Below, piece after piece: positions 17,756 to 21,440 of a stretch of DNA of 36,295 bases (position 1 is the stretch's first letter; each line of letters starts with the position of its first letter). The stretch spans positions 1-36,295 of the forward strand of contig JAOULO010000033.1 in the NCBI GenBank assembly GCA_029881995.1. The letters are read 5' to 3'. Origin of the DNA: Gammaproteobacteria bacterium (GTDB lineage: Bacteria > Pseudomonadota > Gammaproteobacteria > UBA6429 > Thiohalophilaceae). The translations under genes were made by a program, and so were the position numbers. The notes beneath the pieces are model-generated. The model ran no database searches and was not told where the DNA came from. It saw nothing but the letters and a program-made list of their open reading frames with translations.

Positions 17756-17971
17756 ATGGAATTAAAGCGGCAATCTGTCATTTCCTGCCCAAACTGTGGG
17801 TTCGAAAAACTGGAGACCATGCCAGTAGATGCGTGTACCTGGGCCTGGGAATGCCCTCAATGTCAAAACACCCTTAACCCCAAGCAGGGCGACTGCTGTG
17901 TCTTCTGTAGCTATGGCTCGGTACCCTGCCCTTCCATGCAACACGTGGGACCTAACAGAGCCTGTAATTAG
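17756..17971 (+). CDS. GDCCVxC-domain small Cys-rich protein
   Basis: A 71-residue protein with ten cysteines: C11, C14, C27, C33, C36, C47, C48, C51, C58 and C70. The CPNC and CPQC pairs suggest a zinc or Fe-S site, and GDCCVFCSYG (45-54) is the hallmark of a family that includes selenoprotein members. Here all positions are Cys, with no in-frame TGA. AGGAAGA lies about 7 nt upstream of the ATG. The function is unknown; a metal-bound redox or mercury/metal-handling role is only a guess. A 7-bp inverted repeat (17705-17727) sits between hemJ and this gene. It ends 4 bp inside the convergent rhombosortase gene. Confidence 0.88.
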   Translation: MELKRQSVISCPNCGFEKLETMPVDACTWAWECPQCQNTLNPKQGDCCVFCSYGSVPCPSMQHVGPNRACN

Positions 17972-18573
17972 AAATTTTCCCGAAACATTCGCTTTGAACG
18001 TGTCAGGTGCAAAACAAGATAACTCATCAAGCCACCAACAATGCCATACAAATGCGCATTAACGATAACCGGCGCACCAATTAGCTCATCACTTTGCCAA
18101 AATCCAATTTGAAGTTGTTCAAGAATTATTTTTACGAGAAGCCCCGCCAGAATAATCAGGCGTAAGAAACCGGCCAGTTGTCTGGCCTTAAGAATCAGCA
18201 GTACCATAATACCGTGCAATACACCAGACAGGCCTCGATACCACTGGACCTGTGGATCAAACAGAAGCAATCCTGCACTCACCGCAACAAAAGAAATGAA
18301 AAGACCAAACCACCAGTCTCGAGCCGTCATGTGATATCGAGACAAAACGCCGATCAAAACCAGTCCTGCCAGATTTACAAAGCTATGATAGAGATTGGTA
18401 TGTACCAGATGCCCGGTCAACAAACGGTAGAACTCACCATCAGTGATAGCCAAACGTTGATACTGAAGAACAGAGGCTCCCTCCTCGCCGGTAAATAACA
18501 TGATAAGAACAAGCAAAGAGAGCAGTAACCAGGGATGACTTTGGAAAATAAATTCTTTCACCCCTGATTCCAT
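17968..18573 (-). CDS. rrtA: Rhombosortase (rhomboid-family intramembrane serine protease)
   Basis: A 201-residue protein with about six TM helices. The catalytic Ser lies in YRGLSGVLHG (residue 116 from this start) and the catalytic His in NAHLYG (about 174), the pattern of the rhombosortase branch of rhomboids. Rhombosortases cleave proteins carrying a C-terminal GlyGly-CTERM tail, releasing them from the membrane. The ATG at 18573 is preferred, with a TTG just upstream. It overlaps the preceding gene's stop by one base (TGATG), suggesting coupling. None of the proteins in this window ends in a visible GlyGly-CTERM tail. Confidence 0.85.
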   Translation of the reverse strand: MESGVKEFIFQSHPWLLLSLLVLIMLFTGEEGASVLQYQRLAITDGEFYRLLTGHLVHTNLYHSFVNLAGLVLIGVLSRYHMTARDWWFGLFISFVAVSAGLLLFDPQVQWYRGLSGVLHGIMVLLILKARQLAGFLRLIILAGLLVKIILEQLQIGFWQSDELIGAPVIVNAHLYGIVGGLMSYLVLHLTRSKRMFRENF

Positions 18574-19202
18574 CAAGCATACTCTGCAAAGTAGATGGCC
18601 ACTCCAAGTGCAATAAGGGCGATTTCAAATATGGTGATCCAAATCAACATATAGGAAATGCGACGGCTCATTGGCTTCATGGGTTGCCAGACTCGACGCA
18701 TATACCAGCGCCAGGGAGATATCCATGACCATTTCTTCCAGGTCATCATATAGCGCAGCAGATACTCTCCCCAAATGGTGAGACTTCTATCCACTTCATT
18801 TTCACGCGCCTTTATCTCCTCTTCACCCACATCAACATACTCATCAATGATCGACATTTTGGAAACATTCTCGAGGGGCTCTAACTTGAACAGAGTGCTC
18901 TTCTTCAAACTATCCTGGTAACTCACCAGTACCCCGTCATCCACCTCTTTGACCGTTAATACATCTTCAAACTCAAAATGATTGTCAGTACCATGACTAA
19001 TGTTCTTGCCAATAACATGGTATTGGTTCTCACCGGTTTTTTCCCATTTCTTGAATTCCAGATAGGGATTAATTCGAAACAGACGTTCCACATCTTCATC
19101 ACAAAAGCGTTTGAGCTCCTGCATGGTAAAGGGAGTACGAAATTCGGCCCAGGCCGAATTGCTTGCCGAGGTCGGCGCTGCTACTACATCTTGCTCACTC
19201 AT
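18573..19202 (-). CDS. Unknown membrane-anchored protein, possibly SRPBCC-like
   Basis: I do not recognise this 209-residue protein. Residues about 20-130 look like a soluble alpha/beta domain that starts with a helix (MQELKRFCDEDVERLFRINP) and continues with antiparallel strands, which would fit a SRPBCC-type ligand-binding fold. A Trp/Arg-rich basic segment (about 153-183) precedes one C-terminal TM helix (about 183-205), making it tail-anchored with the domain in the cytoplasm. It starts within the last codons of the universal stress gene (8-bp overlap) and overlaps rhombosortase by one base, so it belongs to the same transcript. Confidence 0.75.
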   Translation of the reverse strand: MSEQDVVAAPTSASNSAWAEFRTPFTMQELKRFCDEDVERLFRINPYLEFKKWEKTGENQYHVIGKNISHGTDNHFEFEDVLTVKEVDDGVLVSYQDSLKKSTLFKLEPLENVSKMSIIDEYVDVGEEEIKARENEVDRSLTIWGEYLLRYMMTWKKWSWISPWRWYMRRVWQPMKPMSRRISYMLIWITIFEIALIALGVAIYFAEYA

Positions 19203-19670: not shown

Positions 19671-19708
19671 AAAAAAAGAACGGTGCCCGCGCGAGGCAGA
19701 CACCGTTC
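19671..19708 (-). terminator. Intra-operon terminator or attenuator before the Usp gene
   Basis: The minus strand reads GAACGGTG, a 15-nt GC-rich loop with inner pairing, CACCGTTC, then seven T residues. It lies between the 40-residue membrane-peptide gene and the Shine-Dalgarno of the Usp gene. It should keep transporter and peptide mRNA abundant while lowering downstream expression. Confidence 0.85.
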
Positions 19709-19731
19709 CGGTTCTTACTTTTAAGACTTGC

Positions 19732-19854
19732 TTAGTACGCGAAGTAAACGGCGAAGGCGATAACCAACGCAATTGCCAGAGCCATGAAGTCTTCTTTACG
19801 GTCGCTGCCAAAGATAGATAAGGCAGAACCACGATCAAAGTTATTCTCACTCAT
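19732..19854 (-). CDS. 40-residue single-TM membrane peptide next to the YeiH transporter
   Basis: A small gene with a strong ribosome binding site: AGAGGAG lies 8 nt upstream of the ATG and overlaps the transporter stop region. The product begins MSENNFDRGSALSIFG, continues with a charged SDRKEDF segment, and ends in one hydrophobic helix (about 24-39, ALAIALVIAFAVYF) closing at FAY. It starts 14 nt after the end of the YeiH-family gene and is followed by a strong terminator, so the two are a tight pair. It could be a stabilising or regulatory subunit of the transporter. I know of no named family for it. Confidence 0.78.
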   Translation of the reverse strand: MSENNFDRGSALSIFGSDRKEDFMALAIALVIAFAVYFAY

Positions 19855-19868
19855 AATTTAATCTCCTC

Positions 19869-21440
19869 TTAAATCGTATCTTTAACAACGAGCATGACCA
19901 CAATCAAGGACAGAACGGCCTTGGTAAAGCCGACGATACCGCCGATTACCGCAGGTTGTCCACCCGCCTGCTTCATAGAAGCTACGGTGATTTGCATACC
20001 CAAGCCTACCAGACCGAAGGCAAATAACCAGGTAATCCAGTTACGGAAAGCCTTGATCTTCGCCGAAGCATGTCGGACAGCCTTATGCGCCTTCTTCAGG
20101 ATCTTGTTGTTGTCTTTGGACATGATCTTGGCATTAACGAGACCACGAATCTGGTCATCGTCTTCAATACTCATGATCTTACCATTAGCAATCAGACGCT
20201 CAACAGCCGCCTTACGGTCAGCACGTTGAATCTTGCCCATTTCAGCCTGTAGAGCAGCCTTCTTGCTATCAGACAGCAGGTTTTTGGACTTGAAGTCAGT
20301 CGTGTTATTGAAGTATTTGCCCTTGTAGTGGTTGGCTGGAGCAAACATACCTGTTGTAGATAATGCGAATAACAGCAGGAAACCAATAACGAACATTGGG
20401 AACTTCTCAACAATAACCTGACCAACAGACACCTTGGTACCAGTCTGTTCACGTTTCACGTACCAGACAGCCAGCCACATTACGATGATAGGCAGAACCA
20501 GTACACGTGTGATGTTGAAGATTTCCGCAACTTTCAGGGTTTCGATACCGTCAGGCTGATAAGCCAGCGCAGCACCCGCTACCTGAGCAGAGTTCAGGAT
20601 ACCGGTACCCGCCCAGGCACCAAACTTCAGGTAACTCATGTCGAGCATCTGGCCGACCATTGGGAAGACGAACATACAACCAACACCCCAGAGCAGGATC
20701 GTACCGATGGTGTATGCGATTTCCACTGATTTGGCCTGTACAACAGGGGCAGAAGCAACTGTGGCAGATACACCACAAACACCCATACCGGCTGACAGTA
20801 CGCCACCCATTGAGTTAGGAATACCTCTACGTGCGCCCAACCAAAGAGTCATACCTACTGAACCCAGTACGAAGAAGCCAATCATAAAGATGGACAGACC
20901 ACCCAGATTTTTCAGCTCAGCCGCAGAGTAAAGAGTACCCAGCAGAATAACACCGGTTTTCAGACCCAGACGTGAAACACGTACACCGTTCTTCGCCCAC
21001 TCAGGAACCTTGAAGAAGTTAACGATAATAATACCCGTCAGAATACCCATGACTACGTAGTTCAGACCGAGGATCTTGTGGAGGTATTTACCGGTATCAC
21101 CGACTTTACCCATCATCTTACTGACAACTGCAACCTCAGGTGCGATGAACCAGCGAACCAGCATCGCAATCAACAGAATGAACATTGCACCAGCTAGTGT
21201 TGATGTGTAGTAATCGAAATTACCTTCTTTGTGGGAACCAAACCATTGCCACAAGCCCATCACGGCTGCAACAACACCGAAATACAATGGAATACTGAGT
21301 AACTCCTTGGTGTATTTGTATTTCTTACCCCCTAAATGCTCAATGTAACCACTAAGCATTCCTGCGTCAGCCATAAACCATATGGCTAACATTATGACGC
21401 CGATAATAAAGAGCGCCGGATTTTTCTTGGTATAGACCAT
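19869..21440 (-). CDS. YeiH-family putative sulfate exporter with a large soluble insert
   Basis: A 523-residue polytopic inner-membrane protein. The core (about 120-360 and 468-520) matches the YeiH/UPF0324 family: SRLGLKTGVILLG, GVCGVSATVASAPV and the GILNSAQVAGA segment. Family members are about 340 residues. This one has extra N-terminal TM helices (about 1-110). It also has a charged, Lys-rich insert of about 100 residues (366-467) between two late TM helices, rich in helix formers and probably a cytoplasmic or periplasmic domain. The substrate is unproven; export of sulfate or other sulfur oxyanions is the usual annotation. AGGAGGT sits 8 nt before the ATG, suggesting high translation. 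It is followed by a 40-residue peptide gene. Confidence 0.9.
   Translation of the reverse strand: MVYTKKNPALFIIGVIMLAIWFMADAGMLSGYIEHLGGKKYKYTKELLSIPLYFGVVAAVMGLWQWFGSHKEGNFDYYTSTLAGAMFILLIAMLVRWFIAPEVAVVSKMMGKVGDTGKYLHKILGLNYVVMGILTGIIIVNFFKVPEWAKNGVRVSRLGLKTGVILLGTLYSAAELKNLGGLSIFMIGFFVLGSVGMTLWLGARRGIPNSMGGVLSAGMGVCGVSATVASAPVVQAKSVEIAYTIGTILLWGVGCMFVFPMVGQMLDMSYLKFGAWAGTGILNSAQVAGAALAYQPDGIETLKVAEIFNITRVLVLPIIVMWLAVWYVKREQTGTKVSVGQVIVEKFPMFVIGFLLLFALSTTGMFAPANHYKGKYFNNTTDFKSKNLLSDSKKAALQAEMGKIQRADRKAAVERLIANGKIMSIEDDDQIRGLVNAKIMSKDNNKILKKAHKAVRHASAKIKAFRNWITWLFAFGLVGLGMQITVASMKQAGGQPAVIGGIVGFTKAVLSLIVVMLVVKDTI

Follow-up and report, generated by a model that had tools for sequence, protein, structure and literature searches.

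A conserved 40-residue membrane peptide gene behind a long YeiH transporter gene, a candidate for a small transporter subunit

The peptide gene and its surroundings

The window, by which we mean the whole 36,295-nt stretch of DNA analyzed here, carries on its minus strand a gene for a long transporter of the YeiH or putative sulfate exporter (PSE) family, followed by a 40-codon open reading frame (ORF), a universal stress protein (Usp) gene, and a gene for a 209-aa protein (Table 1). The short ORF is translated as MSENNFDRGSALSIFGSDRKEDFMALAIALVIAFAVYFAY, in which residues 1-23 form a charged head and residues 23-39 the single hydrophobic stretch, with a best 17-residue mean hydropathy of 2.64. 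With fewer than 60 aa and one predicted transmembrane helix, the peptide has the size and topology of small single-helix transporter subunits. Its Shine-Dalgarno sequence shares one base with YeiH, the first A of AGAGGAG closing the YeiH stop codon; the GAGGAG part (19863-19868) stops 8 nt short of the ATG, and 14 nt separate that stop codon from the ATG. A reading of this DNA made from its sequence only had pointed to a well-spaced AGAGGAG, a start 14 nt past the transporter gene, and a charged head with a single transmembrane helix, all of which are borne out. By a loose test, a Shine-Dalgarno-like sequence is also found at 67 of 72 related peptide loci.

Table 1. Positions of the features discussed, in coordinates of the window
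Feature	Position	Strand	Basis
40-aa single-helix membrane peptide gene	19732..19854	-	40 codons + TAA; homologues, conserved frame
Shine-Dalgarno AGAGGAG	19863..19869	-	sequence; 8 nt upstream of peptide ATG
Intrinsic-terminator-like hairpin + T run	19677..19709	-	after peptide, before usp; 14 pairs
Long YeiH / PSE family transporter, 523 aa	19869..21440	-	PF03601
Usp, 154 aa	19195..19659	-	PF00582
209-aa protein, helix-grip (SRPBCC/START-like) domain + C-terminal helix	18573..19202	-	AlphaFold2 pLDDT 93, Foldseek

Starting 22 nt past the peptide stop codon, a 14-pair hairpin is followed by T6. Terminator-like sites number four in the region versus 2.2 expected by shuffling, the other three having only 5 or 6 pairs. 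A comparable terminator follows the peptide gene in 27 of 72 relatives versus 12 of 1,440 shuffles, and 4 of 72 have one in a control stretch before the peptide; conservation of the terminator is thus partial. The sequence-only reading took this terminator to set off transporter and peptide as a distinct high-level transcript. The hairpin itself stands, but a counterpart was found in only those 27 relatives, and the high level is unproven.

The transporter scores 150.8 bits against PF03601 (cut-off, 24.5) and is the sole match to this family in the source genome. Against NCBIfam TIGR00698 it reaches 64.4 bits, below the cut-off of 232.6; this score and the tree described below make it a distinct branch of YeiH/PSE. 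A sequence search of the PDB gave no match to it. In an AlphaFold model of YeiH and peptide joined into one chain, pLDDT is 78 overall and 61-75 (10-residue means) over the last three blocks of the peptide, only moderate confidence for the peptide helix; the join is artificial and may sit on the wrong membrane side, as the available text of PMC12880088 puts the C-terminus of YeiH in the periplasm. Foldseek found no PDB match to the joined model at E<=0.001, the best being CitS (5xas_A; E 0.032). VIA-align of the YeiH model placed 8zor_A, SbtA with SbtB, at the top (Z 15.1, 249 aligned, rmsd 3.6), and many elevator-type antiporters at Z 11 to 14. Since mostly helical models can reach such Z values by common arrangement, the model supports the general CPA/AT-BART elevator fold and nothing narrower. 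Published analyses, in the portions available, agree with the CPA/AT assignment (PMC8396727, PMC8562792).

The Usp scores 48.8 bits against PF00582 (cut-off, 24). The 209-aa protein has no Pfam match above cut-off; its predicted structure gave 47 Foldseek matches in the PDB at E<=0.001 (best E, 2.6e-5), including START, Bet v 1/PR-10, aromatase/cyclase, and AHSA1-like proteins, and its C-terminal helix is probably membrane-spanning. Directly after these genes lies a rhombosortase gene (window 17968-18576; TIGR03902, 139.3 bits; cut-off, 84), a homologue of which occurs in 1 of 80 related loci.

Conservation of the peptide gene and its neighbors

Of 96 genomes searched, 16, including the source genome, have homologues of the peptide at E<1e-6 (17 places in all), and a profile of 11 peptide sequences, run against 369 genomes of the class, detects it in 18 at E<=3.2e-16. 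Upstream of every one of the 32 peptide frames listed, three of which repeat the same places, a long open frame finishes in YeiH-like sequence, 8-32 nt away or once 90 nt. Named genomes scanned with a long-YeiH alignment contain 288 relatives, and the 80 loci considered here are the best, and hence the closest, of these; in 74 of the 80 the peptide gene lies downstream of YeiH (72 found by script; L171 and L232 recognized by eye in the sequence). It is close to YeiH in most of them and about 300 nt off in L216, L217, and L224. Four of the other six are cut by contig ends: YeiH itself is truncated in L176, L198, and L211, and the contig of L185 stops 145 nt past YeiH. The last two, L214 and L215 of Ca. 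Marithrix, have no peptide gene beside YeiH, and a whole-genome search located it elsewhere in both genomes. The peptide is thus a near-constant companion of this YeiH branch. At the separate Ca. Marithrix loci, the peptide precedes frames that by eye resemble Usp and the 209-aa protein (L253, L254), or has a 209-aa-like frame close by and no Usp frame of at least 90 codons (L255).

In pairwise comparisons of 74 sequences over 31 core codons, the mean number of differences is 8.7 at first, 3.6 at second, and 19.9 at third codon positions, and the median dN/dS of the core is 0.15 (535 pairs with 0<dS<2). R8, G9, L12, F15, D18, R19, E21, D22, and L26 are invariant in 73 sequences (72 named loci plus the window), a pattern to be read knowing that the head-motif screen for peptide genes selects for part of the conserved head; outside this set, R8 is replaced by H in L014. 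Conservation extends into the helix, with L26 in 73, A33 in 71, and Y37 in 70 of the 73. Records with the peptide gene include Nitrosomonas, Parabeggiatoa, Thiomargarita, Sedimenticola, clam symbionts, and Rhodospirillales, and the pairing with YeiH spans records labeled Gamma-, Beta- (Nitrosomonas), and Alphaproteobacteria; both Nitrosomonas marina (L204) and N. aestuarii (L195) have the gene.

These results establish the ORF as a protein-coding gene under purifying selection. A gene below the usual size cut-offs had been proposed, with conservation of the frame beside other long YeiH genes as the check; the frame is conserved at 74 of the 80 loci, which bears the proposal out. That the ORF is a chance product or artifact of the intergenic region, for which its short length is the only argument, has virtually nil probability given the homologues in both genome sets and the selection on its codons, and we rejected it because the reading frame is conserved.

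The peptide matched no family in Pfam-A or NCBIfam at E<=1 and nothing meaningful among PDB sequences. The strings RGSALSIF, GSALSIFG, and LSIFGSDR occurred in no paper in a literature text search, and the peptide is undescribed in the titles and displayed abstracts of literature on YeiH with small protein, YeiH with Usp, and PF03601. Small transporter-associated membrane proteins are a known kind; the family itself is new to Pfam and NCBIfam, a small-protein family without a model in either that sits beside a widely annotated, poorly understood transporter family.

The neighboring genes, which the sequence-only reading did not mention, travel with the YeiH-peptide pair. Among 65 named loci with at least 700 nt downstream, Usp lies beside the peptide in 61 (53 by script; in eight more a same-strand Usp frame, whose opening precedes the distance limit, was recognized by inspection), and a homologue of the 209-aa protein lies within 1,800 nt in 60. 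The Nitrosomonas records carry these neighbors too. Four loci (L216, L217, L218, and L220) keep YeiH and the peptide with no Usp or 209-aa gene detected nearby, which makes YeiH the tightest partner of the peptide.

Two side observations concern the head sequence. SQDIDLQEE or close variants stand in a longer peptide N-terminus, before the head, in L203, L213, L219, L221, L223, L225-L232, L234, L235, L237, and L238, in records labeled both Alpha- and Gammaproteobacteria. In the source genome, a small secreted-looking ORF (G000:C23, L025:1294-1545) has the C-terminal end AGSENNFDRGSALSIQ, of which 13 residues (SENNFDRGSALSI) recur exactly in the window peptide's head; the DNA shows synonymous differences, 30 of 45 nt being shared. 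Near it, by eye, are small ORFs with what we take to be GG-type motif ends and a frame that is presumably C39-peptidase-like. The other 95 genomes searched gave no match to this ORF below E 0.2; its head-like sequence is either a partial copy or a mimic, and is unexplained.

Apparent cis and trans forms of the helix among YeiH proteins

To place the peptide within the transporter family, we drew 100 PF03601 regions from searches across the class and the phylum, chosen regardless of the peptide except that known peptide loci were omitted. They comprise 42 of the 52 above-cut-off matches of one search and 58 regions from the other. Omitted from the first were the peptide loci already known (G000, G121, G133, G164, G232, G083, G084, G096, G140:C52, and G126), and from the second repeats, the known G360, and further matches, nearly all of them high-scoring. 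One region (L099) was dropped for having no YeiH frame. Of the resulting 99 loci, 7 are trans, with a separate peptide gene, an undercount because ten known peptide loci were left out; 18 are cis, with an ED-W-W-A helix within the YeiH chain; 74 have neither; and none has both. The trans loci carry a peptide with the motif upstream of YeiH in L082 and downstream in L103-L108. The 18 cis proteins have ED-W/Y-W-A-I/V/L in their own N-terminal part, e.g., LWLKEDWWAIWLGLGIVLVAY. The 74 with neither form include a long-type YeiH cut by a contig end (L090), two more that end there (L081, L093), four without an N-terminus (L086, L089, L096, L097), and one that scores only 22 bits as YeiH (L100).

All 7 trans loci have a Usp-like ORF in the region examined, and none of the 18 cis or 74 other loci has one, counts from which a divergent or distant Usp could be missing, as the profile was built partly from peptide-adjacent Usp genes and the screen reached about 2 kb on each side of YeiH. 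Three further loci (G008, G022, G355), all reached via peptide searches, represent a short type: their open YeiH frames span 395-404 codons and are accompanied by a peptide (for example, MTLFKDDRAEDWGAIVVSILIVAV) and likewise by a Usp-like ORF.

Profile comparison links short-type and long-type peptides (P 4.5e-7, with three rows on one side). Against full-length cis YeiH, the best match of the combined peptide profile is the EDWWA site, at P 8.5e-5 for subgroup 1, 7e-4 for all 17 sequences, 6.5e-3 for subgroup 3, and 0.044 for subgroup 2. Long-type peptides alone gave 0.0016 for subgroup 1, 0.011 for all 17, 0.12 for subgroup 3, and 0.19 for subgroup 2, where the site tied with another place. 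Short-type peptides alone gave 0.0049, 0.0066, and 0.019, and in subgroup 2 ranked another place first (0.047) and EDWWA second (0.21). The profiles of classical and long YeiH showed P>=0.09 against every peptide profile. The match between cis helix and peptide is short, about 20 columns, and the RG..L..F.SDR head is missing from the cis helices; a common origin of the two is suggested rather than conclusively indicated by these comparisons. No natural fusion of a long-type YeiH with the peptide was seen among the loci examined.

In an unrooted 71-row IQ-TREE tree, the trans YeiH proteins (17 long, 3 short, and 1 with the peptide upstream) form one side of a branch with support of 100/98, and the cis and neither types each form one side too (100/99). 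Most long-type rows came from peptide searches, the neither type was thinned from 66 to 33, and L090, L098, L100, and L105 are examples of rows left out; L082 and L083 have long branches. With all trans types on one side, the peptide most simply arose once in its clade and was then retained. What looks like one helix occurs in cis in one YeiH clade and in trans in another.

Several loci of this survey show further arrangements. In L082 (G238), which looks like a distant variant, the order is reversed: a 62-aa peptide with STFSAERKEDYFMLAVAAIVVVL precedes a 477-aa YeiH, and Usp-like frames stand before the peptide and after YeiH. One contig (G022:C3:18139-21026; L015, L026) carries a long-type and a short-type YeiH-peptide pair within about 3 kb. 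Immediately after YeiH in the cis loci L110-L115 comes a small ORF with cysteine (such as ..CGNCCFFLSEPEQLEQSLPGY..SVRADTGVC..); its like lies within longer frames in L109 and L116, and something similar further on in L085 and L087.

Proposed role of the peptide and known systems compared

Considering pairing, conservation, and the in-chain helix together, we think it likely that the peptide is a small membrane subunit of one YeiH/PSE branch, supplying in trans a scaffold helix of the N-terminal type. Its hydrophobic helix would most likely dock on the scaffold domain of the transporter, in place of the N-terminal EDWWA helix of sister YeiH subfamilies, and the conserved head (RG..L..F.SDR.ED) would probably face the cytoplasm and connect the transporter with the Usp encoded alongside, a possible reporter of nucleotide or energy state. 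The module would then consist of YeiH, the peptide, Usp, and the membrane-anchored helix-grip protein. A precedent lies in PSE proteins, modeled as 9- and 11-helix forms that differ by two N-terminal helices with the N-terminus inside, and in the statement of the same study, as far as its text is available, that topology variation within a fold type is always in helices of the N-terminal scaffold subdomain (PMC8396727). From these forms we infer a trans-acting scaffold helix whose head lies in the cytoplasm; binding to YeiH, orientation, docking site, and regulatory role are all parts of this proposal. If the subunit reading is true, a YeiH of this branch without the peptide would be an incomplete transporter, and Usp and the helix-grip protein are named as its candidate partners.

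Alternatively, the peptide could mainly be a membrane anchor or adaptor for Usp, and perhaps for the helix-grip protein, its head binding Usp and bringing it to the transporter and its helix being structurally dispensable for YeiH. We consider this somewhat unlikely. In the sample, Usp is a neighbor at all 7 trans loci and at none of the 92 cis or other ones, the head motif is peculiar to the peptide when set against the cis helices, and in Ca. Marithrix the peptide sits with Usp-like and 209-aa-like genes, apart from YeiH; however, the four named loci that keep YeiH and the peptide with neither Usp nor a 209-aa homologue detected nearby, and a helix conserved beyond the needs of an anchor, speak for a tie to the transporter itself. 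It is improbable that the peptide, instead of being a constitutive subunit, tunes or represses YeiH in the way that AcrZ tunes AcrB: in size and topology it resembles the small regulatory proteins covered by the review PMC10710835, in its available part, but a conditional regulator is a poorer fit than a stoichiometric subunit for a gene that follows the transporter immediately and is rarely missing. A small hydrophobic toxin, of type I or holin-like, is very improbable and was rejected, since size and hydrophobicity are all that favors it, against transporter pairing across three proteobacterial classes of records, strong purifying selection, a conserved charged head, no PADLOC match, and no occurrence in phage or plasmid collections.

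A leader peptide for YeiH was rejected because the gene lies downstream of YeiH, and phage or plasmid cargo because the peptide is unmatched in either collection. As for the transporter, 214 plasmid records have a YeiH-like match, none covering 80% of the window YeiH; viral contigs scanned with the cis and long YeiH alignments yielded no relatives, and a scan with classical YeiH gave 12 loci, 9 of which were taken into the alignment.

Returning to the subunit reading, its physiological setting can be outlined. The source genome has dsrA above cut-off (609 bits), and two of its contigs carry matches to the RuBisCO large subunit at their ends, which fits a sulfur-oxidizing autotroph. Together with the need for YeiH in sulfite resistance of Salmonella, as given in the available text of PMC12880088, this makes export of sulfite or sulfate by the window YeiH plausible by analogy. 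Since Nitrosomonas records also carry the peptide and its neighbors, the substrate may be sulfite, sulfate, or another anion. A broader picture, which we put forward as speculative and rather doubtful, is that an elevator scaffold helix became a detached, exchangeable subunit. A nucleotide-sensing Usp would dock on its conserved cytoplasmic head, and peptide, Usp, and membrane-anchored helix-grip sensor would together control anion flux in chemolithotrophs as a Usp-based counterpart to SbtA-SbtB.

The Pfam and NCBIfam libraries include KdpF and AcrZ models, neither of which the peptide matched at E<=1. AcrZ is encoded apart from acrB, and KdpABC is a P-type ATPase system; to our knowledge, KdpF lacks a long charged head, and we know of no small helix peptide in SbtA-SbtB. 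The likeness to small subunits such as KdpF and AcrZ that the sequence-only reading drew is supported for the role, through gene association, retention in two genomes with separated genes, and the apparent in-chain counterpart, and is not supported for sequence kinship. The following comparisons draw on the available portions of the sources cited. Salmonella YeiH shares the transporter type and is needed for sulfite resistance (PMC12880088), whereas it is a classical short YeiH, and the 74 PF03601 loci with neither helix form had no Usp-like ORF. PSE_1 and PSE_2 (PF03601) belong to the same transporter family and differ by N-terminal helices, but there the extra helices are in cis, and that text, in the part available, does not mention a separate helix gene (PMC8396727). 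SbtA-SbtB is the top structural match of the YeiH model, and its co-encoded nucleotide-binding regulator would parallel Usp (PMC10710835); SbtB, however, is PII-like and not a Usp, and fold likeness shows no shared substrate. KdpF of KdpFABC is likewise a very short membrane peptide encoded with its transporter and a proposed stabilizer (PMC3618439), although sequence kinship with the window peptide was not found. AcrZ (49 aa, with AcrB) is a single-helix small protein tied to a transporter (PMC10710835, PMC7267776); the window peptide, without sequence kinship to it, differs in having an elevator-type YeiH as its presumed partner and in being encoded right beside it.
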